From IMG/VR virus record IMGVR_UViG_3300034072_001527, positions 1 to 50,872 of that record: a stretch of DNA of 50,872 bases. One strand, given 5' to 3'. A program made the translations under genes and the position numbers. Within the stretch, counting starts at the first letter, position 1, and each line of letters opens with the position of its first letter. This document shows, piece by piece, positions 25,731 through 50,786 of the stretch. The notes beneath the pieces are model-generated. The model was not told the origin of the DNA and made no database searches. It saw only the letters and a program-made list of their open reading frames with translations. This stretch comes from a virus.

Positions 25731-26242
25731 AGCAGCAGCCCCTGCGGCGTGGCTGGCAAAGGAGCATCGCGGCGCGGACGGGCAGCTTCATCTGGCCATG
25801 CAGTCATCCACGGCTTTGCCGGATCGATCGATCCCACTCCGGCCCGACTTTCCCACAAAAACATTCCCAACTGACCGGGGCACGCGATAGGCTCGCAGGC
25901 CGCCGGAGTTTCTAGCTCAAGGCACCACGGGCCGAAAAACCACGGGCTAGAACTTTGCTTGGCAACCGCCGTAATTCGCACGGACCCAATGATTGCTCCG
26001 CGCACCAGCGCATCAGGGCGAGGACATTCCACCCCAATCGAAGCCATGAAGCTCCGCGCGCCCTCGTATTCGTCGCGCGTCATGCCCTTCGAGGCGTGGA
26101 TCGCGACCTGACCCGGAGCGGCCATTGAGCCTTTGGTGATTGCCACCTTCGTTCGGTTCTCGACGTCTTTCCCGCCGTGAATGATCGCCCAAGCCCAAGG
26201 CTGGCGAACCGACAGCGCATATGCGGGCAGAAACTCGCTCAT
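25727..26242 (-). CDS. ASCH-domain protein
   Basis: The 171-residue protein contains the ASCH signature at its N-terminus: ALSVRQPWAWAIIHGGKDVENRT (split here as ALSVRQPWAWAII plus GGKDVENRT), then QVAIHASKG and RGAIIGSVRI. ASCH domains are RNA-binding, PUA-like folds, and some cleave or bind RNA or modified nucleosides. It lies between the two terminase genes with ATGA overlaps on both sides, so it is a stable part of the packaging operon. The 35-residue tail is Pro-rich. Confidence 0.8.
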   Translation of the reverse strand: MSEFLPAYALSVRQPWAWAIIHGGKDVENRTKVAITKGSMAAPGQVAIHASKGMTRDEYEGARSFMASIGVECPRPDALVRGAIIGSVRITAVAKQSSSPWFFGPWCLELETPAACEPIACPGQLGMFLWESRAGVGSIDPAKPWMTAWPDEAARPRRDAPLPATPQGLLL

Positions 26243-26835
26243 CCCTCATCCCCTTCTCGAACCGGCAACACCTTGACCGGCGCCTCAAGCAGCCGGTCGC
26301 GCGCCTCGCGCTGGCCGCCGATTTCCTCGACAATGCGCACGCCCTGGATCGTGTGATCGACCTGCACAGGCTGGTCGCCGTGGAAGATCTTGCGCGTCGC
26401 CTCGGCGCAGCGGATGCGGATCGCGCGCGCCTCGGCGAAGGTCATCCGCTTCTTGGGCGGATCGAGCTGGCGCGAGCGTTCGACCATCGCCTCCTCGCTC
26501 TCGCCGAGGATCTTCATCATCACCACCGCCGGATCCGGCCCGAACTGGCGCAGGTAGGCCTGCACGTCGCGGTTGACGCGGTTTTTCGCCCCCTTGGGCC
26601 GCCCTGCCTTGCGCTTCTCGCGCACGTGCCGCAGCACCGTCAGCCCGCCCGGATTGCCGCCGAGCTCTTCATAGGCCTCGGCCGCTTCCTCGGCGGTGAT
26701 CGGATCGTCGTCGAACAGCCCGCCCTGCTCGGCCGCGGCCGCTTCGGCGATCTCGGCATCGATCAGCTTGGCCGCCTCGGCCGCCGCCTGCTCGAGCTCG
26801 ACTTTTCCACCGGGTTTGAACGGGTCAGTTGACAC
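26239..26835 (-). CDS. Putative terminase small subunit
   Basis: The 198-residue product is read from a GTG at 26835, chosen for its GGGAGG six bases upstream. It has an acidic N-terminal helical region, a basic linker (KRKAGRPKGAKNR, about residues 74-86) as in many small terminases, and a C-terminal helical domain. It heads the late operon and lies upstream of ASCH and the large terminase. No crystal-type HTH motif is obvious, so the call relies on position and the basic linker. Confidence 0.65.
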   Translation of the reverse strand: MSTDPFKPGGKVELEQAAAEAAKLIDAEIAEAAAAEQGGLFDDDPITAEEAAEAYEELGGNPGGLTVLRHVREKRKAGRPKGAKNRVNRDVQAYLRQFGPDPAVVMMKILGESEEAMVERSRQLDPPKKRMTFAEARAIRIRCAEATRKIFHGDQPVQVDHTIQGVRIVEEIGGQREARDRLLEAPVKVLPVREGDEG

Positions 26836-26967
26836 GCGCGCCTCCCGCTTTAGCGTGGTTGGTCCGACGCAGCGCCGTATTCCCGGCACCGCAGACGATC
26901 AGGGCCTCACCCCGGCCCGTTGCCGCCACCGCGGCATGGATCGGCGCCCTCACCCTACCCCGACCCG

Positions 26968-27517: not shown

Positions 27518-27788
27518 GGTTCCCGTCGGGAACCACTCGGGAACCGTTCGGGAACCACTAAACCCTTCTATAACATAGAGAATAGATAGCGGTTCCCAAG
27601 TTCCCGCTTTTTTGCGGAACGCCCTATACGCGCGCGCGCGTGTGCCCGCACGCGCATCTGGCTGCATCCAAAAACCGGGAACCACGGGAACCGGCGCGAT
27701 TATCGAGCAATAACAACGCGCTAGGCGTTCCCCAAGCGGTTCCCGAGCGTTCCCAACGGGAACCACCCCCCGGGCCCAGCTGGTTCCC
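27518..27788. repeat. Helically phased GGGAACC / GGTTCCC array (candidate origin or operator)
   Basis: Thirteen copies of GGGAACC or its complement (some lacking the last base) occur in 271 bp, starting at 27518, 27528, 27539, 27550, 27591, 27600, 27677, 27686, 27727, 27738, 27749, 27758 and 27782. Within clusters the spacing is 9-11 bp, so the sites lie on one face of the helix. An A+T-rich stretch (27557-27590) sits between clusters. The array lies between the late operon and the plus-strand ArdC operon. It resembles an iteron origin or a large protein-binding site. Confidence 0.65.
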
Positions 27789-28078: not shown

Positions 28079-29020
28079 ATGGCCAAATTCGACACCTATC
28101 AGGAAGTGACCGACGCCATCCTCGCCCAGCTCGAGGCCGGCAAGAAGCCCTGGCAAAAGCCCTGGCAGGACGGCGGCCTTTCCATGCCGCGCCGCGCCAC
28201 CGGCGAATATTACCGCGGGATCAACGTGCTCTTGCTGTGGGCGAGCGCGATGGAACAAGGCCTCACCGGCGACCGCTGGATGACGTTCAAGCAGGCGATC
28301 GATCTCGGCGCCAGCGTCCGCAAGGGCTCCAAGGGCACCCGCATCGTGTTCTTCAAGCAGCTCACCGTCGAGGACAAGGAGACCGGCGAGGACAAGGCGA
28401 TCCCGATGCTGCGCACCTACGTCGTGTTCAACAGCGACCAGATCGACGGCCTGCCCGACAAATTCGCCAGCGCCCCGATCGTGCCGGCCGAAGGCATCGA
28501 ACGGGACCGGGCGGCCGAGGCTGCGCTGCGCAGCTGCGGCGCCACGATCCAGGAAGGCGGCGCCGGCGCCTACTACACCCCGGCGACCGATATCGTCACC
28601 ATGCCGGATTTCGAGCGCTTCGCCAGCTCGAGCGGCTATCTCGCCACCCTCGCGCACGAGCTGTGCCACTGGACCGGGCACAAGTCGCGCCTCGACCGCT
28701 TCGGCGCCAACACCAAGACGGCCTACGCCTTCGAGGAGCTGGTGGCGGAAATGGGCGCGGCTTTTGTCGGTTCGCGGCTCGGCATCGTGGGCGAGCACAT
28801 CGAAAACCACAGCGCCTATCTCGCCAGCTGGCTCAAGGCCCTGCGCGATGACAAGCGCGCGATCTTCAAGGCTGCGAGCCTTGCCCAGGCCGCGGCCGAC
28901 ATGGTGCTCGCCAACGCCGGCGACGCCCAGCCCGCCAGCACCCCGGCCGAGGCCCCGATCGCGGCCGCCAAGCCCGCCCCGGCGGCCGAGGCGCCCCCGC
29001 AAGCCGCCTTCGCCTTCTGA
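28079..29020 (+). CDS. ardC: ArdC-like antirestriction protein
   Basis: This 313-residue protein has the two ArdC parts. The N-terminal ssDNA-binding domain (DUF1738-type) starts MAKFDTYQEVTDAILAQLE with PWQKPW and YRGIN. The C-terminal metallopeptidase-like domain carries HELCHWTGH near residue 195 and a conserved EELVAEMGAAF. In plasmids and phages such proteins protect incoming DNA from host restriction. The C-terminal 40 residues are an Ala/Pro-rich tail. It is the first gene of a three-gene plus-strand operon with its own regulated promoter. Confidence 0.85.
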   Translation: MAKFDTYQEVTDAILAQLEAGKKPWQKPWQDGGLSMPRRATGEYYRGINVLLLWASAMEQGLTGDRWMTFKQAIDLGASVRKGSKGTRIVFFKQLTVEDKETGEDKAIPMLRTYVVFNSDQIDGLPDKFASAPIVPAEGIERDRAAEAALRSCGATIQEGGAGAYYTPATDIVTMPDFERFASSSGYLATLAHELCHWTGHKSRLDRFGANTKTAYAFEELVAEMGAAFVGSRLGIVGEHIENHSAYLASWLKALRDDKRAIFKAASLAQAAADMVLANAGDAQPASTPAEAPIAAAKPAPAAEAPPQAAFAF

Positions 29021-29131: not shown

Positions 29132-29425
29132 ATGCCCACCAAGCTTGAAGCCCAGCTTGGCCGCAATGGCCTCGCCCCGGATCATAATTATCCGGCGTAC
29201 ATCGCCCGCCTGACGGATCAGAACCAGCATTGGCAGGCGGCCGCCTCGATCGCTGCGCGCTACGGCAACCCGACCGAGGAAGCGGCAATCGACACGTTCA
29301 ACCATCGCCAGGCGAAGCGCGGCTACAGCGAGCCCTCGGAAATCGCTTGCCGCACCGCGATCCTTGCCGGGATCCTCGACCGACTGCCCGCCAACGTGGC
29401 GGCCGAGCTGCGGGAGGCACTTTGA
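29132..29425 (+). CDS. Hypothetical protein, ArdC operon
   Basis: A 97-residue helical protein starts MPTKLEAQLGRNGLAPDHN and has a good ribosome site (AAGGAAAGG). No family was recognised. It lies 111 bp after ArdC and 3 bp before the next gene, so it is probably co-transcribed with both. Confidence 0.65.
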   Translation: MPTKLEAQLGRNGLAPDHNYPAYIARLTDQNQHWQAAASIAARYGNPTEEAAIDTFNHRQAKRGYSEPSEIACRTAILAGILDRLPANVAAELREAL

Positions 29426-29428
29426 GCC

Positions 29429-29779
29429 ATGGCCAAGCTGACCACCTGGACGCCCACCGCCGGCGATATCGTCCACTTTCGCGATGACAAGAACCCGGAA
29501 ATTGCCGGACGCTACCGGCTCGACCTCAAGGACGACGAGCCCGGTTATTTCGCCTTCACCCTGCTCCGCACCGGCAAGGCGCACATGCTGATCAAGCCGT
29601 GCGTGCTGATCGACTGGGAAGAGCGCGGCGTGATCACCCTGATTGATCCGGCCGAGCTCGAGCGCGATCGCAAGGCGCTCGAGCTGCGCAGCCTCGCACC
29701 GCTTCGCGGCCGACGCGCGCAAGCCGACGTCGACGGCCTCGGCCTGTTCGATCGCGTGCGCTCGCCCGCGCTGTTCTAG
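29429..29779 (+). CDS. Hypothetical protein, ArdC operon
   Basis: This 116-residue protein starts MAKLTTWTPTAGDIVHFRDDKN and appears beta-rich in its first 70 residues with a basic tail. GGGAGG lies 12 bases upstream of the start. No family was recognised. It ends 33 bp before the end of the convergent helicase gene. Confidence 0.65.
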   Translation: MAKLTTWTPTAGDIVHFRDDKNPEIAGRYRLDLKDDEPGYFAFTLLRTGKAHMLIKPCVLIDWEERGVITLIDPAELERDRKALELRSLAPLRGRRAQADVDGLGLFDRVRSPALF

Positions 29780-29811: not shown

Positions 29812-31815
29812 TCACGCCGCGGCCTCCGCACCCAGCTCTTCCATCCACCGCCGCACCGCCGCCTTCTGGCTGGCTTCGGGCAGCTGCTCCTCGTCCAGGA
29901 CGTGATAGAGCGGCACCAGCACCGCCTTGAGGCCGGTTCGCCCGAATTTGATCTTGCGGCACTCCACCGCCTGCGGGAACCGCGCCAGCACGTCGCCATA
30001 GATCGGCGCCCACAGCGTGCCCTCCAGCAACTTTGAAAGCGGCTGATAATTGGCCGCCAGCGCCAGGAAGCCGGGCTCTTCGGGCTTGTAGCTTTCCGCC
30101 CCCCACCGCGCCGGCTTGGAAACCTTGCCGGCCGCGTCGCGCTCTTCGGGATAGAACCGCGCATTGACCAGCTTCAGCCCGATATTGGCCAGGCGATCGG
30201 CCGCGCGCTCATCGCCGGCGCGCTCGTCGCTCCCGGCAAACATCGGCGTCACGGCATAGTCCAGGGCGTCGCCAATCCAGCTTGACAGCGCCACCCGCTC
30301 GTCGCCGCCGCGCGCCTGCACCTGCCCGCCCAGCATGTGGTGCAGGCAGCGTGCATAGTCGGGCTCTTCCTGCGCGATTTCGCGCATCTTCTCCGGCCGG
30401 CAACGGTCCGCCCATTCCAGCACGGTTTCGAAATCGGGCAAGCCGTCGGCCGTGTCGTGATCATGGATCAGCACGTCGGCACAGGCCAGCAGCGTGCCAA
30501 ACTGGTCGCAGGCGCGGCCATCATGCCCGGCCTCGGCCAGCGCCTCGTGAAACTTGATCTTGGTCGCCTCGAGCCGGTGCCATCCGTCGATCATCCGCCG
30601 CAACAGCTTGCGGCCAAGCACGGGGAGATTGTAGCGCGCCAGATCCGGCGGCGCCGGCCATTCCTGCGGGAAGGGGCGCAGCTCGAGGATCGCAAGCCGG
30701 CTGCGGTCCTGCGGCTGCAGCGCCGGGATGTTGATGCTCGAGAAGAAAAATGCGCTGCGCAGCGTGAATTCGTGCGCGCTATGATCCTGTCCGCCGCGGT
30801 GCATCGGGCTGCCACTCGAGGCAACGCGCGCCAGCTCGACCACCTCGTTGACCTTGCGGTTATCGACGCTCGCCTCGAGCTCGTCGAACAGCACGGGCAC
30901 GGTCGCATTGGCCAGGCTCTGGCGGATCGCGGCCGCGCTGGCATTGCCGGTGCGGAACACGCCCTTGCCCAGCAGCAGCGCCAGCACGCCGTCGTCGCCG
31001 TTCAAGGTCGATTTGCCGGTGCCGCGCCCGCCGGTCAGCCAGGCATTGGGACGCCAGCGCAGCGCGCCGCCGATCATCGCCGCGCCGATCCAGCCCAGCA
31101 ACAGACGCGGATCCAGCAGCGGGCGCCGCCAGTTCCAGGTGCGCAGCAGGCCGGGCAATCCGTCGCGCCCGGGCGTGCCGGCGATCAGCAGCGCGGCCGC
31201 CTCGGGGCCGACCGGCTCGTGCCAGGGCCGGGGGATCGGATCGTCGCCGGGGTACACGTGATCAGCCAGCAGGCCGGGATCCTCCCACTTGAAATCGCGG
31301 ATCCGGCCCTCGATCGTGTGGTGGCTCGCCAGCAGCTTGTCGCCGCAATGCAGCACCAGCCCGCCATTGTCATGGCGGTGCGCGCCGCGGCCGCGCATCT
31401 TGCCGGCGGCGCTGAACACGCCCTTGCGCACGCATTCGCCGATCAGCGCGGCCGTGGCCTCGGCCTGGTCCCAGCCCACGATCTCGGCCGGGCGCTCGCG
31501 CGTCGGCTTGCTCCACTTGGGGAAATGCTCCTCGAGCCATTCCTCGCCGCCGAACAGCGCGACCACGCCGTTCTTGCCGTGGCGATTGTTCGCCTCGAGG
31601 CCGACCAGCTGCTTGTTGACGTCGAGGTAATAGCAGGTCTGCTTGCCGTCGACCGAGCTTTTGATCCCCAGCGGCTTCACCGGGCAATCGCGCGGGAAGG
31701 GCGGCCGGTCGCGGCCGCGGCGATCGGGCCGGGCCTCGCCGTCATCGGCAAGCCGCGGCGCCGGGACCGGATTGTCCAGCGCTTCCTTGATCGGTGTCAC
31801 GTCCGCCCCCGCCAT
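29812..31815 (-). CDS. Replicative helicase-like P-loop ATPase
   Basis: This 667-residue protein has a central ATPase: Walker A GGRGTGKST and Walker B VPVLFDELEA, followed by a sensor-like FFSSINIPALQ. The layout (an N-terminal DNA-interaction region, an AAA/SF3-like centre, a helical C-terminus) fits phage and plasmid helicases that work with a separate Toprim primase. The start ATG 31815 shares a base with the preceding TGA. I place it in replication by motif and neighbours; an SF3 assignment is not certain. Confidence 0.72.
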   Translation of the reverse strand: MAGADVTPIKEALDNPVPAPRLADDGEARPDRRGRDRPPFPRDCPVKPLGIKSSVDGKQTCYYLDVNKQLVGLEANNRHGKNGVVALFGGEEWLEEHFPKWSKPTRERPAEIVGWDQAEATAALIGECVRKGVFSAAGKMRGRGAHRHDNGGLVLHCGDKLLASHHTIEGRIRDFKWEDPGLLADHVYPGDDPIPRPWHEPVGPEAAALLIAGTPGRDGLPGLLRTWNWRRPLLDPRLLLGWIGAAMIGGALRWRPNAWLTGGRGTGKSTLNGDDGVLALLLGKGVFRTGNASAAAIRQSLANATVPVLFDELEASVDNRKVNEVVELARVASSGSPMHRGGQDHSAHEFTLRSAFFFSSINIPALQPQDRSRLAILELRPFPQEWPAPPDLARYNLPVLGRKLLRRMIDGWHRLEATKIKFHEALAEAGHDGRACDQFGTLLACADVLIHDHDTADGLPDFETVLEWADRCRPEKMREIAQEEPDYARCLHHMLGGQVQARGGDERVALSSWIGDALDYAVTPMFAGSDERAGDERAADRLANIGLKLVNARFYPEERDAAGKVSKPARWGAESYKPEEPGFLALAANYQPLSKLLEGTLWAPIYGDVLARFPQAVECRKIKFGRTGLKAVLVPLYHVLDEEQLPEASQKAAVRRWMEELGAEAAA

Positions 31816-32315
31816 CAACCGGCCTTTCTCTTGTCATTGCTGCGCAGCGGGCAATCGCGCTCGATGCACTTGGCGCCGAACCACGCCGGCACAGGGCCGA
31901 AACCGCGGCCGCTCGATCGCGAACCGCATCGGCACATCACCTGGTTGCGCTTGGCTTCGGGGATCGGCGGCGGCTCCATCGGCGCCGGCCGCGGGCCGCG
32001 CCACCGCGCCGCCGTCTGCTCCATGCCGCTCGGCGCGTCGGCGATCGCGATCCGCTCGCCACAGAAAACAACACACGCTTGGCGGGCTTTCTCCGGATAC
32101 CTCACCGGCGGGACTACCACTCCCGCCGGCGCCGCGGGCCGGTTTGCAACGTGCGCGGGGGCTTGCGCTCCCGCCTTCTCCGCAGCCCGCCCATCGCAGC
32201 CGCGCGTGCGGTCGGCTGTTGGCTTACCCGCGGATGAAGTTTGTCGGCGAGCGGCCGCGCGCTCGGCCTTGCGCTTTTCGCGCTCGTAATCTGCCCAGGA
32301 CCAGGTGTAGCTCAT
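31815..32315 (-). CDS. Cys-containing hypothetical protein, replication operon
   Basis: A 166-residue product starts MSYTWSWADYEREKRKAER. The first 60 residues are basic and helical. The C-terminal part holds a possible zinc site (CRCG ... KCIERDCP). It is coupled to both the primase (ATGA) and the helicase (TGATG), so a DNA-binding or loading accessory is plausible. No family was recognised. Confidence 0.6.
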   Translation of the reverse strand: MSYTWSWADYEREKRKAERAAARRQTSSAGKPTADRTRGCDGRAAEKAGAQAPAHVANRPAAPAGVVVPPVRYPEKARQACVVFCGERIAIADAPSGMEQTAARWRGPRPAPMEPPPIPEAKRNQVMCRCGSRSSGRGFGPVPAWFGAKCIERDCPLRSNDKRKAG

Positions 32316-33505
32316 GCCGCACGCTCCTGGCCATTTTTAGCCGGGCCTACCGCTGCGCTGCTTGAGGCCTCGCGCAGCGCCAGCACCCAGTCATTGATAT
32401 CCTTGACCGGCACTCCGCCGACCGCCTTGGGCGGCATCACGATCGAAACCTTCACCCCGCGCGCCTGCTGGCGGGCGATCGCGGTTTCCAGCGCGTCGCG
32501 CGCGGCCGGCTTGTCGTCGCGGTCGGCCACGATCACCAGGCTGCGCGCCTGACGGGGCAGCACGATCGCGCCGATATTGCCGAGATTGATCGAACAGATG
32601 ATCCGCGCTTCGGGCTTGATCATGCGGATCGCCACCGCGTCCTCCGGCCCTTCACAGACATAGATCGGCTCGCCCTCGGTCATGTCGCTCATGGGCTTGC
32701 CGCTCGATCCCTTGTTGATCGGGATGAAACCGCCCCACTGGTTGCCAAGCACCATCTTGGCCGGCGCGCCCGTCAGCTTGCGCCAGCGGCCTTGCCGGTC
32801 CTGCTGCAGGAAGATCCGGTGCGTGCCGATCTGGCGGCCTTCGGGCGTGACGATGCAGGCGACGATCGCCGGCAGCTTGATCTGCAAGCCGCCATGATAG
32901 ATCTCGGGATGGAACCGCAGCGAGCCGGGCCATTGCCCCGTCGATCCCGGCACCAGCCCGCGGCCGCGCAGATAGAAGTCGCCGCCGGTCCCGGCGATCG
33001 GCGCAGCCCCCAGCCACAGCTGGCGCGCGCGCTTGGCCTTGCGCTCGAATTCGTCGCGCTCGGCCGCGGCGCGCTCTTCGGCGCGGGCCTGCGCCTCGGC
33101 CGCGCGGCGCTGCTTTTCCTCCTGGGTCAGCTCGCGCCGCTCGCCGCTCACAGGCATTCCGAGCCGCCGCCGCGCTTCCTCGAAGGCGCCGCGCGCATCG
33201 AGCCCCAGCTTGAGCCGGAGCAGGTCGATCATGTCGCCCTTTTCCTCGCCGGGCGCGCAGTTGCCCGCGTCGCACCAGTGCCCGATCTTGGAACCGGACA
33301 GGTTCACCCAGGCGCTTTCGCTCGCGCCCGTGTCGGGGATCCCGGAAAACATCCACTTGTTGCCCGCCTTGCGCCCGTTCGGCAGCAACTCGGGCGCAAG
33401 GCTAGCGGCAAGCGCGTTGATCGCGTCGACCACCTGCGCGGTGTCGTCCAGATATCGCGTGCCTTGTCGGCCTACCGCTTCGCTACTTGAGGCCCGCCCG
33501 CTCAT
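32312..33505 (-). CDS. Toprim-domain DNA primase
   Basis: This 397-residue protein has a possible zinc ribbon-like region (WCDAGNCAP, residues 78-86), a charged coiled linker (130-160) and a C-terminal Toprim domain with the catalytic Glu in CEGPED (285) and Asp residues in VADRDD (328-331). It would make RNA primers for phage replication, with the helicase-like ATPase two genes downstream. The ATG at 33505 overlaps the preceding gene stop (ATGA). Confidence 0.82.
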   Translation of the reverse strand: MSGRASSSEAVGRQGTRYLDDTAQVVDAINALAASLAPELLPNGRKAGNKWMFSGIPDTGASESAWVNLSGSKIGHWCDAGNCAPGEEKGDMIDLLRLKLGLDARGAFEEARRRLGMPVSGERRELTQEEKQRRAAEAQARAEERAAAERDEFERKAKRARQLWLGAAPIAGTGGDFYLRGRGLVPGSTGQWPGSLRFHPEIYHGGLQIKLPAIVACIVTPEGRQIGTHRIFLQQDRQGRWRKLTGAPAKMVLGNQWGGFIPINKGSSGKPMSDMTEGEPIYVCEGPEDAVAIRMIKPEARIICSINLGNIGAIVLPRQARSLVIVADRDDKPAARDALETAIARQQARGVKVSIVMPPKAVGGVPVKDINDWVLALREASSSAAVGPAKNGQERAA

Positions 33506-33666
33506 TCCGCGCCCTCGACCAGATCGGCAAGCCGCAACAGGTGCCCCGCCAGCTGGCGCGCGCCGGTCGGGTTCATCGTGAAGGTCTGGCTGTCGGTCGG
33601 CAGCGTCAGCTGCGCGGCGATCTCGCCAAACGTGCCCGAAGCGGTGATCTTGAGTTTCAGGCTCAT
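33502..33666 (-). CDS. 54-residue protein, replication operon
   Basis: The small protein starts MSLKLKITASGTFGEIAAQL and ends LADLVEGAE. Beta then alpha structure is likely. Its start and stop both overlap neighbours by ATGA. No family was recognised; a host-takeover or regulatory peptide is possible. Confidence 0.6.
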   Translation of the reverse strand: MSLKLKITASGTFGEIAAQLTLPTDSQTFTMNPTGARQLAGHLLRLADLVEGAE

Positions 33667-33872
33667 GCCGGCGGCAATCCCCGCCGCTCGCGCACCAGCT
33701 TGGCATAGTCGAGCAGGCCCCGGGCAAGCTTCTCGGCCGCGTCGACGTCGAGCTCGTGCTCGATCATGTCGGCACCATCGGGCAGCGGCACCATCAGCAG
33801 CACGCGCCATTGCCCGTCGCTGCCCAGCTTGCCCACCACATGGGCGTGCGGCGTGAGGCGGGGCGCGCTCAT
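33663..33872 (-). CDS. 69-residue protein, first gene of the replication operon
   Basis: The product from ATG 33872 (MSAPRLTPHAHVVG) is 69 residues; TTAGGGA about eight bases upstream supports this start. An in-frame ATG at 33896 would add eight residues but lies between the arms of the operator dyad and has no ribosome site. No family was recognised. Confidence 0.58.
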   Translation of the reverse strand: MSAPRLTPHAHVVGKLGSDGQWRVLLMVPLPDGADMIEHELDVDAAEKLARGLLDYAKLVRERRGLPPA

Positions 33873-40356: not shown

Positions 40357-40398
40357 AAGCTTGGGAAGCTTCTGCTCTACCATTGAGCTACACCCGCA
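40357..40398. repeat. Attachment-site core, copy 2 (element 1 / element 2 junction)
   Basis: This is an exact copy of the tRNA-Gly 5' half, matching 57-98 over 42 bp. It lacks the tRNA 3' half, so it cannot give a functional tRNA. To the left lie the end of element 1 and its integrase; to the right lies the end of element 2 with its own integrase pointing toward this site. Confidence 0.92.
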
Positions 40399-40444
40399 TT
40401 TCAATAGCTTAGGCCATCGAAACCCCGGCAGTTTACAATGCGGT

Positions 40445-41569
40445 TTACACATCGCCCCGGAGCCGCCGGGTCAAATCACTCACAATGGCCCTGTCGTCAA
40501 CATACTTTTTCCGGATTTGATCGACGTGCTGGGGAGACCAGCCCATCCGTTCGGCGACCTCATTGTTGGTGAGATTTGCATTGGCGTGCGCGATGATGCG
40601 AGTTGCAAACGTCCCGCGAAGATCGTGCAGTCGCTTCTGGATGCGCCTTTCCTCACCAGTGATCGGATCACGTTCAGTGTGCCAGATGCCCGCCCCATTA
40701 TTGGCTCGCTTGCGTGCATCATGAAAGCTGGAATTCAAGCCATCGCCCGTCCAAGATTTTCCAAGGCTATTCACGAGCACAGTCTCCACGTTTGGCCTCC
40801 TTGGCCTCTCACGAAGGGCATCAAGCAGTTGATCGAGTTCCTGAAGCCTAGGGAGAGAGACAGTAAATCGCTTGCCCCGTGAACGCTTTGCGGCGGTCCT
40901 ACGAATACCAACATCACCGACCTCATCCCAACGCAAGGCTACCAAATCTGCGCGCCGCAAACCTGTAAGGACGGCGAGGTCGATGGCATCGCGAAGCGGC
41001 TGATCTGCAACCGCCTTAATGGCCTCCAAATCTTCAGGCAGCCAAATGACCGCCGCGCGACCCTCGGGGCGGTCGATAGTCGGGATGCCAATAGCTGGAT
41101 TGTGGATCATATGCCCTTCGAGCACAGCCCACTGGAAGAACTTCCTTAGCACCATGATCGCGATGTCCGCCGTGCGTGCGGTGTCCGACATGCTGTTGCG
41201 CCAAGCGACAATCTTGGGCCTCATTCTGAGATCATCTAGGGCCTTTAGCGGGGCCTTCCCCCACTTCTTCTCGATCCGGTCTAGAGACGCACCCCACACC
41301 TTTTGCGTGCTGACTGCTAGGCTTTTCCATTCGTTGGATGCTCGAAAGGCGGTCAGCGCCTTTCCGACGGTATCCGTGGGATCATTCACTTCCTCAGCCC
41401 GCGCGGCAGTGATCCTCGCCCAGTCGTCCGCAGTCACCCTCGGCTTTTTTCCGCCTTCCGACTTACGGACAAGCGGCCCCCCACGCCAAGCGTAGATATA
41501 CCAAGCAGGGCCACTCTTGAGGCGCTTGGGAACGATGTGAGGCCCGCCCTTCAAAGACGGTCCTTCCAC
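40445..41569 (-). CDS. int: Tyrosine integrase of element 2
   Basis: The product is 374 residues from GTG 41569; a TTG at 41554 with GGAAGGA upstream is an alternative that starts MKGGPHIVPKRL. Catalytic residues: Arg205 (TGLRRAD), His315 and Arg318 (LHDLRGT), Trp344 in the place of the second His (MGWS, a common variant) and Tyr356 (KKYVDD). It ends 47 bp from the attachment core and reads toward it. It is unlike the integrase of element 1 in sequence although both use the same tRNA half. A similar C-terminus is seen at 50797. Confidence 0.88.
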   Translation of the reverse strand: MEGPSLKGGPHIVPKRLKSGPAWYIYAWRGGPLVRKSEGGKKPRVTADDWARITAARAEEVNDPTDTVGKALTAFRASNEWKSLAVSTQKVWGASLDRIEKKWGKAPLKALDDLRMRPKIVAWRNSMSDTARTADIAIMVLRKFFQWAVLEGHMIHNPAIGIPTIDRPEGRAAVIWLPEDLEAIKAVADQPLRDAIDLAVLTGLRRADLVALRWDEVGDVGIRRTAAKRSRGKRFTVSLPRLQELDQLLDALRERPRRPNVETVLVNSLGKSWTGDGLNSSFHDARKRANNGAGIWHTERDPITGEERRIQKRLHDLRGTFATRIIAHANANLTNNEVAERMGWSPQHVDQIRKKYVDDRAIVSDLTRRLRGDV

Positions 41570-41775
41570 TCGTCGAAGGCGCTCCCATCGGCCTCGACGG
41601 CCATTGTTGGCGTGAGGACTTTCAGCCCGCCATCGGGGGTGAAGCAGACCGCTCCGATCTCAATGCCACTACTTTTGACCGACCCGAGCAACCGCTTGAT
41701 CTCAGGTCTGGTCAGCTTCGTGGACGAACGCTTCCGGCGGGGTCGGGGCAATGGATTTATCGGACGAATTGGCAT
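41551..41775 (-). CDS. Small basic protein coupled to the integrase
   Basis: From ATG 41775 (AAAGGAGC eight bases upstream) the product is 74 residues, MPIRPINPLPRPRRKRSSTK, then a mixed alpha/beta part ending FDEWKDRL. It overlaps the integrase start, so the two are co-translated. Its place and basic N-terminus suit a recombination directionality factor, but no family was recognised. Confidence 0.6.
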   Translation of the reverse strand: MPIRPINPLPRPRRKRSSTKLTRPEIKRLLGSVKSSGIEIGAVCFTPDGGLKVLTPTMAVEADGSAFDEWKDRL

Positions 41776-41916
41776 AAAACTGCTCCTTTCGCCCGAATTT
41801 AGCAGCCCCGCGGAAGAATTAAAGCGCTGATTTATTGACATAAAAAGTCGGTGTTCTTAAATTGCAACAGTTGCCCGGATTGATGCTAGTAATCACCCAG
41901 CCTCACTCACTGTTCG

Positions 41917-43368
41917 ATGCCTGCAAAGGGGGTTGTTGAGTTGCCAATTGTTCCCGCCTCTCGCGCTTCGCACCGCGTTGCTAGGGAACTCCCGCCATAT
42001 CAGCGGTTTCAGCGTGATTTCCCGGACTTTACGGACAAGATGAATGGCCTGCGGAAAGCGTTCACGCGGGATTGCGAGCGACTGGGCGGGTTGGACCAGC
42101 GGTCACAGCGCGGTGCCATCCGGCAATTGCTGCGCAATCGACAATTCTTTCCGCTCTTCGCCTTCGACGCGCTGAAGCGGTGCGACGAGTTTGCGCACGC
42201 AAACCCCGCCGTGGTTGAGGCGCTCGCCGACCAGTTCGACCCGTTTAATCCTATCGAGGACGAGCTTGCCATAATTCGCAATGTCGCTGCCCGTGCGAGC
42301 AGAACGCGGCATGTGATGGATTTTGGACCCAAGCGGAGGATGCATCAGCAAACCATTGCCCGCATCGTCCGCCACACCCATTCCCCCTTGGACAATCAAA
42401 AGTTGTTCCATGGCGGGATGCCGACGGCGCTTAGCGCCATCGAAGCTGCCATCTCGGCTGGAGCAACGCACGCCATGGAAGTGGACTTCGTCAACTTCTA
42501 CGGCAGTGTCCGCTTTGACGGGTTGGTCGAAGTCATGCGGCCACTACCGGCATCGGTCACGTCGCATGTCATCTGGGACGAAACGTGGCGCAACGGCGAA
42601 TTGCTCGTTAACGCGGCACCATCGTCGCACCATGCTACCCCCGAGATACCGAAGGGTCTTCCACTGGGGTCCTCAACATCTCCAATCGTTGGTGAAGTGC
42701 TGATTGCTCGATTGCTGGAGGCCGCGCAGCTTCCCGACATCGTCACCTATGCCGACAATCTGTGCGTCCTAGGGCGTTCAGAGGAAGAGGTGCTTGAGCG
42801 GTTCCACACGCTCCAGACGGTTCTCAGGAACCTGCCTTTCGCTTGTATCTCGGGGCTTAGCATGGCCTCAAATGAAATTCGGAATGTGATCGAACGGGAA
42901 AAACCCAGCAAGTTCGGGATCGAGTTCGCGAACCACGAGAGCATCGTTGCGCAATGTGCGGAGGGCGTAGCCTCGATTGGTGGCTGGCGACCATCGGCGG
43001 CGAAGCTTCAGGATTTTCAGATCAGCGCGTCGGACCGTGTCTCTGTCTCGCAATTGAACCGAGCAATCCGGCAAGTGCGTAACCGAGCCAGATATTACCC
43101 AAGTTGGCCTGAAGGCGAGAAGATGGAGGCCGAGTTTGTTGCCGGACTGCTTTGCAGAAAGTTCAGGCTACAGCCCTCGCAAGCCAACCTGCGAGATGCT
43201 GTCAACGCAGTTGTGACGGCGGCTATCGCGTGGGAAGGTGAGCGACCCTTTCACGATTTCCTCGATGACCAGAACGAACCACTCGAAGCCGCAATCGAGC
43301 GCAAGCTAGAGGCAATGGCACGCATCGCTGCAACTCCACGGAGAGGATCGAGGGTTTGCCTCGACTAG
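41917..43368 (+). CDS. Reverse-transcriptase-like protein with YADN box
   Basis: The 483-residue protein has RT palm motifs in order: motif A MEVDFVNFYGSV (Asp190), motif B IPKGLPLGSSTSPIVG (245-258), motif C TYADNLCVLG (YADN at 278-281) and a later KFGIEF. The usual YxDD is YADN here; the first Asp is kept. A 180-residue N-terminal helical region and a 120-residue C-terminal helical region flank the palm. No intron, retron-type RNA or diversity-generating repeats were recognised nearby, so an anti-phage RT (Abi/DRT/unknown-group) is the most likely class. A TTG at 41941 after GGGGG is an alternative start. Confidence 0.78.
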   Translation: MPAKGVVELPIVPASRASHRVARELPPYQRFQRDFPDFTDKMNGLRKAFTRDCERLGGLDQRSQRGAIRQLLRNRQFFPLFAFDALKRCDEFAHANPAVVEALADQFDPFNPIEDELAIIRNVAARASRTRHVMDFGPKRRMHQQTIARIVRHTHSPLDNQKLFHGGMPTALSAIEAAISAGATHAMEVDFVNFYGSVRFDGLVEVMRPLPASVTSHVIWDETWRNGELLVNAAPSSHHATPEIPKGLPLGSSTSPIVGEVLIARLLEAAQLPDIVTYADNLCVLGRSEEEVLERFHTLQTVLRNLPFACISGLSMASNEIRNVIEREKPSKFGIEFANHESIVAQCAEGVASIGGWRPSAAKLQDFQISASDRVSVSQLNRAIRQVRNRARYYPSWPEGEKMEAEFVAGLLCRKFRLQPSQANLRDAVNAVVTAAIAWEGERPFHDFLDDQNEPLEAAIERKLEAMARIAATPRRGSRVCLD

Positions 43369-43391
43369 CTACGCGCCGATCCCCTGCCCCC

Positions 43392-43407
43392 TTGCAACCC
43401 GTTGCAA
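43392..43407. repeat. Paired TTGCAA sites
   Basis: TTGCAA at 43392-43397 and 43402-43407, spaced 10 bp (CTTGCAACCCGTTGCAAC). A pair with the same spacing lies at 50624-50639 upstream of the methyltransferase gene, and a single TTGCAAC lies at 41862 beside the RT gene. They may be binding sites of a regulator of element 2. Confidence 0.35.
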
Positions 43408-43450
43408 CTGCGACGCACAAACAGGAGGGCACGAGGTCGATCAGCGTGCG

Positions 43451-44212
43451 CTACGGCACGTAAGCCTCATCGCGGTCGGCCCTGACGCAAACCTGTTTCC
43501 AGACATTGTCGATGCTGTCACCGGCTGCAAAATCTGAGGCGAGGAAGGCGAAGTCAGGAACGTCTCCTGCTGCGATGAACCGCTGGAACCCAGAATAACC
43601 GCCGAAGCCGTTCTTGGAGTTCACCTCCCCGCAAACCACGGGTGCAGAGCCGCCAGAATAGAAGCGCGAGTTGCGGAAATCGGCGCTGCCCGGATCGCGA
43701 AGGCGAGCCTTGATCGCGTCGTGCGATCTGACGATCCACAATTGCTGCTTACCAACATCAGCGAACGGGCTTTCGTCGCTCTTGGCGACTGCCTCGGGTT
43801 CCGACTGCGCAGACGGCTTCGCCTCGGGTTTGGGTGCGGCTTGGGCCTTGGTTGCCTTCTTGCCCGCATCCGCGATCTTTTCGGCGTCAGCATCCTTCGT
43901 CTTGAACTTTGTCGGGTCAGCCGTTGCGCCGATCATGACCATGGAAATGATGGACGCAACTGCGAACTGCCACCGAGAAATCCGCTCGGTGTATGGCTTG
44001 ATAGCGCCAAGCGCGACAGCACAGAACACCAGCACAAAAACCTCATTCAAACCAAGCTGGCTTTTGTCTGAAGCCGTAGCCCCGCAGGCCAATCCGGAAA
44101 GGAACGCAATGACAGCGAACTGCCAGCGATTTAGGTGGCTGGTGTATGGTTTGATCACGCCAAGCGTCGCAGCCAGAAACGCGATGAGAAAGAACCCAGA
44201 AACCACCTGCAT
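43451..44212 (-). CDS. Membrane protein with duplicated TM module
   Basis: The 253-residue protein is read from ATG 44212 (AAGGGG seven bases upstream). Residues 1-100 hold two copies of one module: LGVIKPYTSHLNRWQFAV and LGAIKPYTERISRWQFAV, each flanked by hydrophobic helices (four TM in all). An Ala/Lys/Pro linker (115-145) leads to a soluble domain (ARLRDPGSADFRNSRF, VVCGEVN) seen in other envelope-associated proteins. Function unknown; it could be an effector or an immunity-type membrane protein. It is divergent from an XRE regulator. Confidence 0.65.
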   Translation of the reverse strand: MQVVSGFFLIAFLAATLGVIKPYTSHLNRWQFAVIAFLSGLACGATASDKSQLGLNEVFVLVFCAVALGAIKPYTERISRWQFAVASIISMVMIGATADPTKFKTKDADAEKIADAGKKATKAQAAPKPEAKPSAQSEPEAVAKSDESPFADVGKQQLWIVRSHDAIKARLRDPGSADFRNSRFYSGGSAPVVCGEVNSKNGFGGYSGFQRFIAAGDVPDFAFLASDFAAGDSIDNVWKQVCVRADRDEAYVP

Positions 44213-44239
44213 AGCCATCCCCTTGATACGATTAGCAGA

Positions 44240-44292
44240 CTATCGTCTACCAAGCACCAAAGGTGCTGCAAGTGCTTTGTAGCCTATCGTCT
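44240..44292. promoter_or_regulatory. Divergent regulatory region with repeats
   Basis: Two direct copies of CTATCGTCT (44240-44248 and 44284-44292) flank a perfect dyad AGCACC-AAA-GGTGCT (44253-44267). They lie between the membrane-protein gene and the XRE gene and are candidate operators for the XRE protein. Confidence 0.5.
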
Positions 44293-44329
44293 GGTGACTG
44301 GAATTTGAGGCTGTGGTCCATCGTGCTTG

Positions 44330-44551
44330 ATGGGCCTGCGCGATAACCTTGCCGCAAATCTTCTTCGCCTGCGCCGCGAACGTGATCTGCCGCAGGATCA
44401 ATTCGCCGCTGAGATCGGCATCCACCGCACTTACCTGAACCACATCGAGAACCGGAAGCGCGCACCGACGATTGACGTTATCGAGAAGATCATGGCGGCG
44501 CTCGACGTCAGCGTGGTCGATCTGCTCGGCGATCCGCCAAGGGATCGTTAG
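44330..44551 (+). CDS. XRE-family HTH regulator
   Basis: The 73-residue protein is almost only an HTH domain: LAANLLRLRRERDLPQDQFA, IGIHRTYLNHIENRKRAP, then IDVIEKIMAALDVSVVDLL. This is the compact single-domain type that often controls mobile-element cargo (restriction controller or solitary repressor). It is divergent from the four-TM protein gene across a repeat-bearing spacer. Confidence 0.8.
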   Translation: MGLRDNLAANLLRLRRERDLPQDQFAAEIGIHRTYLNHIENRKRAPTIDVIEKIMAALDVSVVDLLGDPPRDR

Positions 44552-44562
44552 GCACTCGCGGC

Positions 44563-45021
44563 TCAACCCATTAAGTGGCGCAACGCCGCGAACACATCTG
44601 GCTGCTTCGCAGCCTCCAGCATCTCAGACCGCGACAACTCCCGCGTAAGCAAGGAATGAACCCAGTCGGCGGCTGGCATCGCAGACAGGAACTGTTCCCA
44701 CCCGACGGGATCGCCGAAGCGGCGATGAACCTTGAAATGGCACGAGCGGCAGATCGGTCGTGCCGCCAGCGGGCGAGCGTATATTTCGCCGTGCCTCATG
44801 CTCCCGGCTGGTTGACCGCACACGTCGCAGGGCGCGGTCCGCGCAATCAGGCCCAGATTGCGGGCGACGGCTACCTTCTGCCAGCCGACAATTCTTTCGG
44901 CACCCGTTGCACCGTTGTAGGATCGCGGGGTGGGCCAGCCCCATCTCGGCAAGAAAGCGCCCTGAGCGATGGCAGCATCGACCGCCCGCTCGATGACAAT
45001 GTCGGCAGGCAGGTCAGGCAT
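44563..45021 (-). CDS. Zinc-binding, HNH-like hypothetical protein
   Basis: The 152-residue product is read from ATG 45021 (GGAGG five bases upstream). It holds CDVCGQPAG and, 25 residues on, ICRSCHFKVHRRFG, a four-Cys zinc knuckle with a following His-Arg-rich loop that recalls HNH endonucleases, though no complete HNH motif is visible. It is the third gene of the resolvase operon. Confidence 0.6.
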   Translation of the reverse strand: MPDLPADIVIERAVDAAIAQGAFLPRWGWPTPRSYNGATGAERIVGWQKVAVARNLGLIARTAPCDVCGQPAGSMRHGEIYARPLAARPICRSCHFKVHRRFGDPVGWEQFLSAMPAADWVHSLLTRELSRSEMLEAAKQPDVFAALRHLMG

Positions 45022-45211
45022 CATGGCCTCCGCACATCGCTTCAATCTCGGCGCACAGGCGCTGGCCGCGCGTCAAGCCTTGTCGCACCTGCCGAGATAG
45101 GCAGTGGCAATACTCGGGCGGCTGATCGGCGCGCTGGCCCTCGACTGTGATCCCGTGGAGGTCTTCGAGCAGCATCGTGAGGCGTGCGAACAGTTCGGCT
45201 GGTTCGGTCAC
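45014..45211 (-). CDS. 65-residue protein, resolvase operon
   Basis: The frame starts at GTG 45211 with GGAGGAT upstream and overlaps the resolvase stop (GTGA). The product (MTEPAELFARLTMLLEDLHG) is helical with a central CHC and a C-terminal Cys. Its stop lies eight bases inside the next gene. No family was recognised. Confidence 0.58.
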   Translation of the reverse strand: MTEPAELFARLTMLLEDLHGITVEGQRADQPPEYCHCLSRQVRQGLTRGQRLCAEIEAMCGGHDA

Positions 45212-45771
45212 GCCCGATCCTCCTTCAAGAGCCGGTATACGGACGCTCGGCTGCAATTGAGCCTAGCGGCGATCTCTGGGGGAGTAAGGCCCTGCCCCGC
45301 CAAGTCGCGCATCATGGGCAATTGTCGGCGGGCTGTAGGCACCCTGCCCTGGTATTTGCCTTCGCGCTTGGCGCGCTCGATCCCTTCGCGCTGCCGGACC
45401 AGCATCAGTTCTCGCTCGAACTGGGCGAGCGCGCCAAACATGGTCAGGACAAGTTTGCCCGTGGGCGACTGGGTGTCCATCTCTGTGCCGCCGAAGTCGA
45501 GCACCCGAAGGCCGACCTTCTTGGCTTCAAGCTGTGCGATGATCTGGAGCAGATCGGACGTTGACCGGGCGAGGCGATCAAGCCGGACAATGACGAACAC
45601 GTCGCCCTCGCGGGCAAAATCGAGAGCGGTGTTGAGTTGCTCCCGCTCAGCGACCGACGACACCTGCTCGAAAAAGACCTTGCTACAACCCATCGAACGG
45701 AGTTGGTCGATTTGCCCCTCCAGTCCAGCCTTCTGGTCGAAGGTCGAGGTCCTCGCATACCCTACTAGCAC
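45208..45771 (-). CDS. Serine recombinase (resolvase/invertase family)
   Basis: The 187-residue protein has the small serine recombinase layout: N-terminal catalytic domain with YARTST (nucleophile Ser9) and the conserved VRLDRLARS, long helix with GKLVLTMFGALAQFERELM, and a C-terminal HTH (LTPPEIAARLNCSRASVYRLL). It probably resolves multimers or inverts DNA of element 2. The GTG start has AGAGGAAA upstream. AATCAGAC repeats upstream (45782-45917) are candidate binding sites. Confidence 0.88.
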   Translation of the reverse strand: MLVGYARTSTFDQKAGLEGQIDQLRSMGCSKVFFEQVSSVAEREQLNTALDFAREGDVFVIVRLDRLARSTSDLLQIIAQLEAKKVGLRVLDFGGTEMDTQSPTGKLVLTMFGALAQFERELMLVRQREGIERAKREGKYQGRVPTARRQLPMMRDLAGQGLTPPEIAARLNCSRASVYRLLKEDRA

Positions 45772-46114
45772 GTCACTTTCCTCTGATTTTCTTCATGAAA
45801 TCAGACTAGGGGAGTGTGCAGGTAGGGCTAGGGCTAAGTGGCATTTCGGCGAGAAGATCGCGCCCCTGAGGGTTCCCCCTCGGACCGCCCCCCCTCAGTA
45901 ATCAGACGAAATCAGACGGAATTGAGGTCTAGGCCTCAGCTAGAATACGTCCAAAAGCCTGAACCTGACCCTTGTGCGACCCGATAGCCATTGCGGGGAC
46001 CGTCCAACATGGGGAAGGCTGTGCGAGATCGGCCTTCATCCCTTTGCCACGCATATGCGCCACCAGTCCCCACTGCCCCAGCCATTCAATCTAGCCATAG
46101 CGAGAACATCGGGT
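45772..46114. other. Intergenic region between resolvase and GHKL genes with AATCAGAC repeats
   Basis: The 343-bp divergent spacer has no convincing gene. AATCAGAC occurs at 45799-45806, 45900-45907 and 45910-45917, with an inverted near-copy at 45782-45788. The last two are 10 bp apart. They may be resolvase subsites or operators for the flanking promoters. A GTG-initiated extension of the GHKL frame back to 45974 is open but lacks a ribosome site. Confidence 0.4.
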
Positions 46115-48475
46115 ATGAATGAGCTTATGGCGACGACTGAGCATTTTAGAGTAAGTTCCTTCCTCAAGGACATCATAGGCCGCGACCTGGTAACCAACGA
46201 ATTCGTTGCCGTCTTTGAGTTGGTAAAGAATGCCTTCGATGCGAACGCAAAGCGCGTAGATATCGCGTTTGACCTCATCAACGACGAACTTTGGATCGTC
46301 GACAACGGTAAAGGTATGGACGAGGCGGGCATCAAGGATCGCTGGCTGTTTGTGGCCTATTCCGCAAAGGCAGATGGCTCCGAAGATAATACCGACTATC
46401 GGGACAAAATAAGGCCACAAGGCCAATTCGCTGGCAGCAAGGGCATTGGTCGCTTTTCGTGTGACACCTTAGGGGCTGAACTCGAGCTTTATTCTAAGGA
46501 AAAAGAAAGTGCGCGAGTTCAGCGGCTCGACGTGGAGTGGGCAAGGTTTGAAGAAGACAGCAAGGACCTCTTTCAAAAAATAAATGTCACCCATGAACCT
46601 GATGCCTCTTTTCCGGAGGAAGCACCTGTCAAACTTCCGGCTAAATCAGGCACCATACTGCGGATCAAGCGGCTCCGCATGGACTGGGATGCAGACGCTA
46701 TAGCAAGGTTGCGTCGTTACCTGGAAAAATTAATTGATCCCTTTGGAACTACAAAGGACACCCCGGTCTACATTTCCGTCGTAAGCGACGAACTCGAAGT
46801 CGATGAAATTGAAGAGCTGAGCGGACAGGTTGGAAACGATCTTCAAGAACTGCTCGCTGAGAAAACCACCCGAATCGTTGTCGAAATAAAAGACGATAAA
46901 ATCGAGACCGAACTCATAGATCGTGGTCGGACAATATACCGAATTTGCGAAGCAAACAGTTATCCTTCCCTGGACGCCGCAATCGTCCGCATGGAAATTT
47001 TTTATCTTAACCGAAGCGCCAAGCACACCTTTACATCTCGCATGAAGGTCCGGCCTGTTGAGTTTGGAAGCGTTTTCCTGTTCTTGAACGGCTTTCGTAT
47101 CTTTCCAATTGGGGAGGAAACGGACGACACGCTGGGGCTTAATCGGCGAAAGCAGCAGGGCACATCACGCTACTTAGGAACGCGAGACATCATGGGCCGG
47201 GTCGATGTGACGGCACCTCCCCGAATGTTTCGTGAAGCGTCCAGCCGAGATGCCGGACTGATTGAAGACGCACGCTCTCGCGAGCTATTCGAGGCTATCC
47301 ATCGAAAGGCAATCGTGAGGCTTGAACGGTATGTCGTTGGCGTAACCTGGGCCGACAAAGACGACATGTTCCGGGATGACGCAAGTGGGCTGCGCTTCGG
47401 TGAGACGAAGGGACGGGTGGCGCAAATAATTGCCAACTTGGCTGCGACCAAAGACCTTGAACTCCTCTATTTCGATCCTGAAATTGCCGAACTTGTCGAT
47501 GACGACGTAAATTCCATTGATGGAGCACTGAAGTCTCTTACCGCTATTGCCGAAAAGCAGGGTGACGAAAATTTACTCCGTCGGATCGAAGGTGCAAAGG
47601 CTCGCATTGCTCAACTCGAAAAGGCAGAGGCCGAGGCTGCACGAGCCGCAAAGGAGGCGCGAGAGGCCAAGGCGCGGGCAGACGCGCGGATCGAAAGATT
47701 AGAGCGTCAGACCAAATACCTTGCCTCGACACAAGACCTTACTGTTGAGCAAATGACGCTGCTACTTCATCAGGTCATGATCTACTCAGGCCACATAGGA
47801 GCAGCAATCGACCGCTCCCTAAAGGGCGCGCGCGTAATCATTGATGCAGCGGTCGAGATTGCCGAGCACGTCTCGGAGGAGGAGTTGGAGGAGGCTGCCG
47901 CAGCAATCCGAAGTCGAGCGAGACGCGTTGCGGACGATCTCGACTATATCCACCTCGAAAATGATCGATTGATTGCTGTCGCTCGCTTTGCATCCAACGC
48001 GCGTTTTGATCTTGAAACCGATCTCCTTGAAGGAGATGTCGTCGCCTTTCTTGACGAGTATGTTAATCAGGTGCGAGGCGGTCGGGATGCAACTTCCACC
48101 GTAATGTTCGACGCCAATGACCTTGAACTTCTTGCCAGTTTCAGGCCTGTGGACCTGGTGGTCGTTGTCGACAATTTGCTCGACAATGCGAGAAAGCATG
48201 GTGCCAGGATGATGACCATGGAGGCACGTAAGGGCGACAAAAAGGGTCGAGTTCAGGTTGCGATTTCCGATGATGGTCGGGGAATAGACGAACAGAGGGT
48301 TGATCCAGCGAGGATTTTCGAGAAGGGCTATTCTTCGACTGCCGAAGGAACGGGTCTTGGTCTGTATCACGCCAAGAAGGTTATGCAGGACATGGGGGGC
48401 GATCTGATTTTGGACCCGAAAAGAGAAGTTGGGCGAGTTGAGTTTGCGATGATCCTACCGGAGCCGAAGAAGTGA
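46115..48475 (+). CDS. Double-GHKL ATPase (MORC/MutL-like N-terminus, histidine-kinase-like C-terminus)
   Basis: The 786-residue protein has two ATPase modules. The N-terminal one is Hsp90/MutL-like: ELVKNAFDA (Glu35, Asn39), DNGKGM (63-68) and GSKGIG (107-112), followed by a transducer-like beta domain. Residues 487-536 are a coiled coil. Next comes a helical segment LLHQVMIYSGHIGAAI (His552 or His560 as a possible phospho-acceptor) and a kinase-type ATPase with NLLDNARKHG (687-696), DDGRGI (719-724) and GTGLGLYHA (745-753). It is coupled by GTGA to a receiver-domain protein, so a sensor that phosphorylates or activates that partner is likely. An ATG at 46127 is an alternative start. Confidence 0.82.
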   Translation: MNELMATTEHFRVSSFLKDIIGRDLVTNEFVAVFELVKNAFDANAKRVDIAFDLINDELWIVDNGKGMDEAGIKDRWLFVAYSAKADGSEDNTDYRDKIRPQGQFAGSKGIGRFSCDTLGAELELYSKEKESARVQRLDVEWARFEEDSKDLFQKINVTHEPDASFPEEAPVKLPAKSGTILRIKRLRMDWDADAIARLRRYLEKLIDPFGTTKDTPVYISVVSDELEVDEIEELSGQVGNDLQELLAEKTTRIVVEIKDDKIETELIDRGRTIYRICEANSYPSLDAAIVRMEIFYLNRSAKHTFTSRMKVRPVEFGSVFLFLNGFRIFPIGEETDDTLGLNRRKQQGTSRYLGTRDIMGRVDVTAPPRMFREASSRDAGLIEDARSRELFEAIHRKAIVRLERYVVGVTWADKDDMFRDDASGLRFGETKGRVAQIIANLAATKDLELLYFDPEIAELVDDDVNSIDGALKSLTAIAEKQGDENLLRRIEGAKARIAQLEKAEAEAARAAKEAREAKARADARIERLERQTKYLASTQDLTVEQMTLLLHQVMIYSGHIGAAIDRSLKGARVIIDAAVEIAEHVSEEELEEAAAAIRSRARRVADDLDYIHLENDRLIAVARFASNARFDLETDLLEGDVVAFLDEYVNQVRGGRDATSTVMFDANDLELLASFRPVDLVVVVDNLLDNARKHGARMMTMEARKGDKKGRVQVAISDDGRGIDEQRVDPARIFEKGYSSTAEGTGLGLYHAKKVMQDMGGDLILDPKREVGRVEFAMILPEPKK

Positions 48476-50559: not shown

Positions 50560-50745
50560 GGGGCCTTCGTATAGCGTGGCTGATGCGGAAAGCCAGGACA
50601 AAGCGACCTGTCCCGCAAACCTGTTGCAACTCGTTGCAAAAAAAGCGCACAATAGGTTTACAGGAAAATCGTAAGCTACTGAAATGACTGGAGCCAAATC
50701 GGGCGCGGTTTACAGCAGGAAGGGCGGAAATCCGCCAATCACGGC
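50560..50745. other. Spacer upstream of the methyltransferase, with TTGCAA pair
   Basis: No gene is seen. TTGCAA at 50624-50629 and 50634-50639 (10 bp apart) matches the pair at 43392. The methyltransferase frame is open back to 50697 from a TTG without a clear ribosome site, so these sites could lie in its promoter. The right attachment core follows at 50746. Confidence 0.4.
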
Positions 50746-50786
50746 AGCTTGGGAAGCTTCTGCTCTACCATTGAGCTACACCCGCA
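50746..50786. repeat. Attachment-site core, copy 3 (element 2 / element 3 junction)
   Basis: This is the third exact 41-bp copy of the tRNA-Gly 5' half, again without the tRNA 3' half. It marks the right end of element 2. The 30 bases to its right resemble those right of copy 2 but not those right of copy 1. Confidence 0.92.

Follow-up and report, generated by a model that had tools for sequence, protein, structure and literature searches.

The window, i.e., the whole 50,872-nucleotide stretch analysed (virus record IMGVR_UViG_3300034072_001527), contained a tRNA-Gly gene (24–97) with the left copy of a 42-bp attachment repeat (57–98) within it. An identical right copy was found at 40357–40398; the identical tRNA-Gly repeats therefore delimit a prophage at approximately 57–40398. 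This prophage of approximately 40 kb carried T7-like virion genes, all minus-strand and ending with the terminase genes, followed by an array of short repeats, an ardC gene on the plus strand, a helicase gene, a Toprim primase gene and a CI-like repressor gene (at approximately 34.3 kb). On the far side of the array, a minus-strand gene without a Pfam match (26239–26889) lay directly before the large terminase gene, and synteny suggests it is probably the small terminase gene (terS). The Toprim primase (32312–33727, minus strand) was recognised by its DUF7146 and Toprim_3 domains (Pfam E-values of 5.8e-22 and 2.3e-14, respectively), and 63 of the 76 array loci had a primase gene upstream of the helicase gene. 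Between the array and the helicase gene was an interval of approximately 2 kb with an ArdC-type anti-restriction gene (28079–29020, plus strand; Pfam ArdcN, 1.9e-39) and two small open reading frames (29132–29779), on the strand opposite to the helicase. ArdC was a variable insertion, detected in 7 of the 76 array loci. Since both ArdC and the two small open reading frames were missing in most relatives, this interval can be regarded as an insertion hot spot. The closest relatives of the helicase were encoded on contigs of Erythrobacter, Altererythrobacter, Croceicoccus and Novosphingobium, which points to a sphingomonad as the probable host.

The helicase gene (29812–31818, minus strand) encodes a DUF927/Cch-like AAA+ helicase, the proposed reader of the array and a putative self-loader. 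An AlphaFold2 model built with 65 relatives had a pLDDT of 91.9, with a C-terminal domain at residues ~485–668 that included a wing-like hairpin (618–636). Among solved structures, the model was most similar to SCCmec Cch (5dgk), with a Z of 15.4 for 431 residues that span nearly the entire protein (36–651), and the SaPI5 primase-helicase matched with a Z of 14.0 over 389 residues; MCM structures matched the AAA+ core only. DUF927 was the Pfam family most often matched among the relatives (6 of 65, E down to 2.4e-4), with no DUF927 match in the helicase of the window itself, and the sequence similarity to Cch was weak (E 0.75). At the fold level, the predicted model thus places the helicase with the Cch/Rep (DUF927) kind. 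The structure search with the C-terminal domain alone returned no confident PDB match, so a winged helix is not established for this domain.

A second element of approximately 10.4 kb was integrated in tandem at the same tRNA-Gly site (40399–50786), closed by a third repeat copy (50746–50786). It encoded a reverse transcriptase (41917–43368), a protein with two HATPase domains and a response regulator (45974–49374) and a C5 cytosine methyltransferase (49282–50697). The element looks like a defence island or satellite, and contained no recognised integrase.

A mirror-image array of heptamers

The array (27518–27788) consisted of 13 sites, ten with the exact heptamer GGGAACC and three with GGGAAC and an altered last base (GGGAACT at 27599, GGGAACG at 27726 and 27748). 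A preliminary description of this DNA had already counted the 13 sites. So many GGGAAC cores in 271 bp far exceed chance expectation: in 100 dinucleotide-preserving shuffles of the window, the mean was 2.2 and no shuffle gave more than four. Twelve of the 13 sites formed a two-fold (inverted) dyad centred on 27641, in which every mirror pair was placed within 0–1 bp. From left to right, the plan of the dyad was an outer cluster (− + + +), a 34-bp A+T-rich spacer, an inner pair (− −), 71 bp, an inner pair (+ +), 33 bp and an outer cluster (− − − +). Each half thus held six sites, four outer ones at 10–12 bp and two inner ones at 8–9 bp. The preliminary description had given a spacing of 9–11 bp inside the clusters, and this range widens to 8–12 bp from site to site as measured here.

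The outer left cluster (27518–27556) contained exact heptamers at 27518 (−), 27528 (+), 27539 (+) and 27550 (+), with their mirror partners at 27758 (+), 27748 (−), 27738 (−) and 27726 (−), respectively, in the outer right cluster (27726–27764). The inner left pair (27591–27605) comprised minus-strand sites at 27591 and 27599, and the inner right pair (27677–27692) plus-strand sites at 27677 and 27686. Between the inner pairs, a central spacer (27606–27676) with a (CG)n run surrounded the dyad axis. The left spacer between outer and inner sites (27557–27590; 68% A+T) is a candidate unwinding element. An A+T-rich stretch between clusters had been reported before; this description fits the left spacer and is weaker for the right one (27693–27725; 45% A+T). 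The thirteenth site (27782–27788, minus strand) lay outside the dyad and had no mirror partner. GC skew across the window was uninformative.

Arrays in relatives of the helicase

A profile search with the helicase retrieved approximately 100 loci. Counts were made on the 90 non-redundant ones that had flanks of 1.5 kb or more in both directions. Arrays were detected by any over-represented heptamer rather than by GGGAACC itself. Comparison of these loci (relatives L115–L219) established that the array, its symmetry and its link to the helicase gene are conserved: of the 90 loci, 69 had an above-threshold array 3' of the helicase gene and three had one upstream, and in relatives with at least 45% helicase identity it lay downstream in 21 of 23. 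The close relatives contained no GGGAACC cluster of four or more. Instead, the heptamer differed by lineage; across the loci, TGGAACC, TGCAACC, CAGAACC, TGGGAAC, CCTAACA, GGTAACA, TGTAACG and TGGGACA were among those used, with an AAC core in most. The proposal to look for the array in related phages was therefore borne out for arrays with other heptamers, present in most relatives, and failed for GGGAACC clusters. Neither the symmetry nor the reader protein was noted in the preliminary description, which also overlooked that the heptamer changes; its statement that absence of the array from close relatives would speak against an origin would have led to a false refutation, because the heptamer changes and the array stays.

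The spacing of the 12 sites was nearly constant (10, 11, 11, 40, 9, 79, 8, 41, 11, 11 and 10 bp). With this spacing as a template, 30 loci with several different heptamers fitted 9–12 of the 12 positions, compared with approximately five for shuffled spacings; because these loci also supplied the template, the fit is a measure of conservation and does not count as independent evidence. In a template-free mirror test, 45 of 77 arrays were dyad-symmetric at p ≤ 0.05. Distant relatives carried 3+3/3+3 and similar versions, many of them also with six sites per half, and in some the array was weaker, non-symmetric or not detectable. The mean A+T content of the 30 template-fitting loci peaked in both outer–inner spacers (~0.6 and ~0.77). 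Additional small A+T peaks were observed outside the outer clusters of these 30 loci, placed symmetrically at approximately 170 bp on either side of the dyad centre (0.58 and 0.65). Helicase relatives also occurred in phages or phage-plasmids, namely Synechococcus phage S-H1 (L226), Phaeobacter pP11_f (L227), a Leisingera plasmid (L222) and Atlantibacter pLH84-a-B (L221); their arrays were weaker or partly degenerate and situated close behind the helicase gene.

Remote helicase relatives (approximately 25% identity) were encoded by linear plasmids of approximately 8 kb from Arsenophonus nasoniae and by one circular plasmid of 11.6 kb. The plasmid arrays had the 4+2/2+4 dyad, starting approximately 50–75 bp after the helicase stop codon, with a spacing of about 12, 12, 12, 44–46, 8, 87–101, 8, 44–59, 12, 12 and 12 bp. 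A scan of all genes of the linear plasmid L220 recognised no other replication protein, primase included. Strain aPv harboured two such plasmids with the heptamers CTAACAA and GGTAACA, and strain aNv_CAN two with TACAACC and ATTACAA. The helicases of plasmids paPv13 and paNv_CAN17 shared 97.6% identity in a stretch of 420 residues; identity fell to 71% in the following 110 and to 55% in the final 29, and these two plasmids had different heptamers. To judge from their sequences, this pair amounts to a naturally occurring swap of the putative reading domain. Together, the plasmid dyads and the paPv13/paNv_CAN17 pair argue that the array functions in replication, that the helicase reads it through its C-terminus and that the heptamer serves as a tag of replicon identity. 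Co-resident small plasmids of one strain (L220, L223, L228 and L233) shared the same dyad and had different heptamers, which suggests an incompatibility code.

The reader of the heptamer and rival explanations

Comparison of loci also established that the heptamer co-varies with the helicase. The distance between heptamers correlated with helicase distance (0.57, Mantel p 0.001), a test that does not fully remove phylogeny. In matched loci, the correlations with heptamer distance were 0.07 for TerS, 0.38 for CI, 0.43 for the large terminase (TerL), 0.54 for the primase and 0.44–0.62 for the helicase. Given the helicase, the partial correlations of the other proteins fell to −0.10 to 0.17, compared with 0.27–0.55 for the helicase given any other protein. 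In sliding windows, the best local signal came from helicase residues 616–645 (0.52–0.66), a stretch that the model folds into a beta hairpin close to the C-terminus. Heptamers thus diverged in step with the helicase, most clearly with the final ~50 residues of its C-terminal domain, and not with the small terminase.

Within this region, residue 631 was compared with motif base −2: A was accompanied by T or N in 12 of 13 cases, G by R, K or W in 32 of 34 and C by R or K in seven of seven. The sister helicases of L153 and L189 (75% identical) differed exactly at residue 631. On a tree of residues 1–484, the residue had changed independently four to five times, and an independent-pair test agreed in three of four pairs (p 0.25); because of these few changes and the non-significant pair test, the link to residue 631 is suggestive only. 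Taken as a whole, the co-variation is suggestive of recognition of the heptamer by the helicase C-terminal domain.

Based on these comparisons, we propose that 27518–27764 is the replication origin of the prophage, of the SaPI/SCC-Rep type, and that its reader is the AAA+ helicase encoded by the phage itself, assembled as two head-to-head hexamers; we assign this reading a probability of roughly 0.88. The preliminary description had offered a replication origin and a cooperative repressor site side by side. The former gains strong support from the dyad geometry, the position 3' of the helicase gene, the co-variation of heptamer and helicase and the ~8-kb plasmids. In the mechanism that we infer, the C-terminal domain of the helicase would recognise and bind the heptamer, and the six sites of each half-origin would collect one hexamer, with one subunit per site, so that two rings face each other head to head. 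Melting would follow in the A+T-rich spacers that separate outer from inner clusters, and forks primed by the adjacent Toprim primase would depart bidirectionally. A host polymerase would extend the primers, presumably through recruitment of the host replisome.

A regulatory role would make the array an operator or stoperator to which the phage repressor or a different early regulator binds cooperatively. Short inverted sites with helical spacing near the early region are in keeping with this role, and the prophage does encode a CI-like repressor. However, heptamer distance tracked the helicase rather than this repressor (the partial correlation of CI was 0.15 after correction for the helicase and 0.11 after correction for the C-terminal wing region, compared with 0.55 for the helicase corrected for CI). 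The remaining 17 GGGAAC copies of the window were dispersed at background density, and a TTGACA promoter-like sequence before ardC was more than 200 bp from the array, overlapping none of its sites. Additionally, a rigid 250-bp dyad of 12 sites is not predicted for repressor operators, and we consider this explanation the least probable of all. Scarcely more credible is a packaging site (pac/cosB-like) bound by oligomers of the neighbouring small terminase. Terminase small subunits often bind repeated sites, and in most relatives the array was located between the helicase gene and terS–terL. Yet the heptamer was nearly uncorrelated with TerS, with a partial correlation of −0.10 given the helicase and 0.42 for the helicase given TerS, and the arrays of the Arsenophonus plasmids lay behind the helicase gene and not beside a terminase, with terS, where present, several kb away.

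The array might also be an origin with another reader, such as the primase. Primase and helicase are collinear in their evolution (r 0.85), and the primase, too, correlates with the heptamer (0.54). The partial correlations nevertheless favoured the helicase and its C-terminus (0.34 for the wing region given the primase, 0.18 for the primase given the wing region), the Arsenophonus plasmid L220 has the helicase and no recognisable primase gene, and the SaPI/SCC systems provide a precedent for reading by the helicase C-terminus. A reader other than the helicase is therefore unlikely, although less so than a packaging site.

Relation to known origins

The SaPI Rep and SCCmec Cch helicases were reported to act as two hexamers, with the C-terminal domain as the origin reader (PMC7581432). 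The phage helicase resembles SaPI Rep and SCCmec Cch/Cch2 as an MCM/SF3-like AAA+ helicase with a short-repeat origin 3' of its gene, and the C-terminal domain is proposed here as the reader from co-variation. By predicted fold and by gene order, the origin in the window belongs with the SaPI/SCC kind as a variant. It differs in being found in tailed prophages and on linear plasmids of proteobacteria, where the SaPI/SCC systems belong to staphylococcal islands, and in having a separate Toprim primase; the near-rigid 12-site dyad with a heptamer that changes by lineage is probably a further difference. Phage P4 alpha fuses primase and helicase, whereas these are two genes here (32312–33727 and 29812–31818). 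P4 also requires a second repeat region (crr), and the window contained no second, crr-like array. Iteron plasmids carry direct repeats of approximately 20 bp, and their separate initiator recruits DnaA and DnaB. Repeated short initiator sites and A+T-rich DNA are shared with these plasmids (RepE, TrfA, RepA). In contrast to direct ~20-bp iterons, the array consisted of seven-base sites in mirror-image orientation, and the helicase itself is the proposed reader. In outline, the inverted sites around an axis that would place two hexamers also resemble the origins of SV40 T antigen and papillomavirus E1. These have different motifs and fewer sites, and their origin-binding domain is N-terminal (PMC7581432); homology is claimed for the AAA+ fold only. 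The origin of the pRN1 plasmid likewise lies directly 3' of its replication helicase gene (ORF904; PMC4234260), but it needs a large stem-loop and has no iterons.

No published description of a near-rigid 12-site mirror design was found in the literature searched, which did not extend to the original SaPI origin papers. The origins may represent a widespread, undescribed bacterial class of double-hexamer origins in tailed prophages and linear plasmids, in which one subunit per heptamer lets the DNA count out two hexamers and the heptamer is a changeable tag that separates co-resident replicons; we put this generalisation forward tentatively, at somewhat less than even odds. If the proposed origin reading is right, dozens of prophages would have an origin whose place can be predicted precisely from its geometry even when a sequence search misses it; the pairs of C-terminal domain and heptamer would form a natural series on the DNA choice of a self-loading helicase. 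The 2 × 6 dyad would further offer a simple bacterial system for head-to-head assembly of two replicative rings on duplex DNA, a process of central interest for MCM, T antigen and E1. The use of different heptamers by co-resident plasmids would suggest how many related replicons share one cell.

GGGAACC also occurred in arrays of another kind. In a heptamer search of viral contigs, dense GGGAACC clusters were found in 28 of 76 loci, and a RepA/AAA_25-like helicase, named from a reading of the sequences and not from a database match, was encoded in 19 of these 28 loci compared with none of the other 48 (Fisher 2e-11). These arrays were not dyad-symmetric. Kinship with them was set aside, and they are treated as an analogous, separate system, because they lack the dyad and the window lacks the RepA/AAA_25 family. 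The clusters lay at or inside the 3' end of the RepA/AAA_25-like genes (L046, L048, L063, L065, L076, L092, L096, L097, L101, L109, L114 and others), often on GC-rich contigs. Some of these helicases were fused to prim-pol-like domains, and in some loci the array encoded the repetitive C-terminus of the protein.
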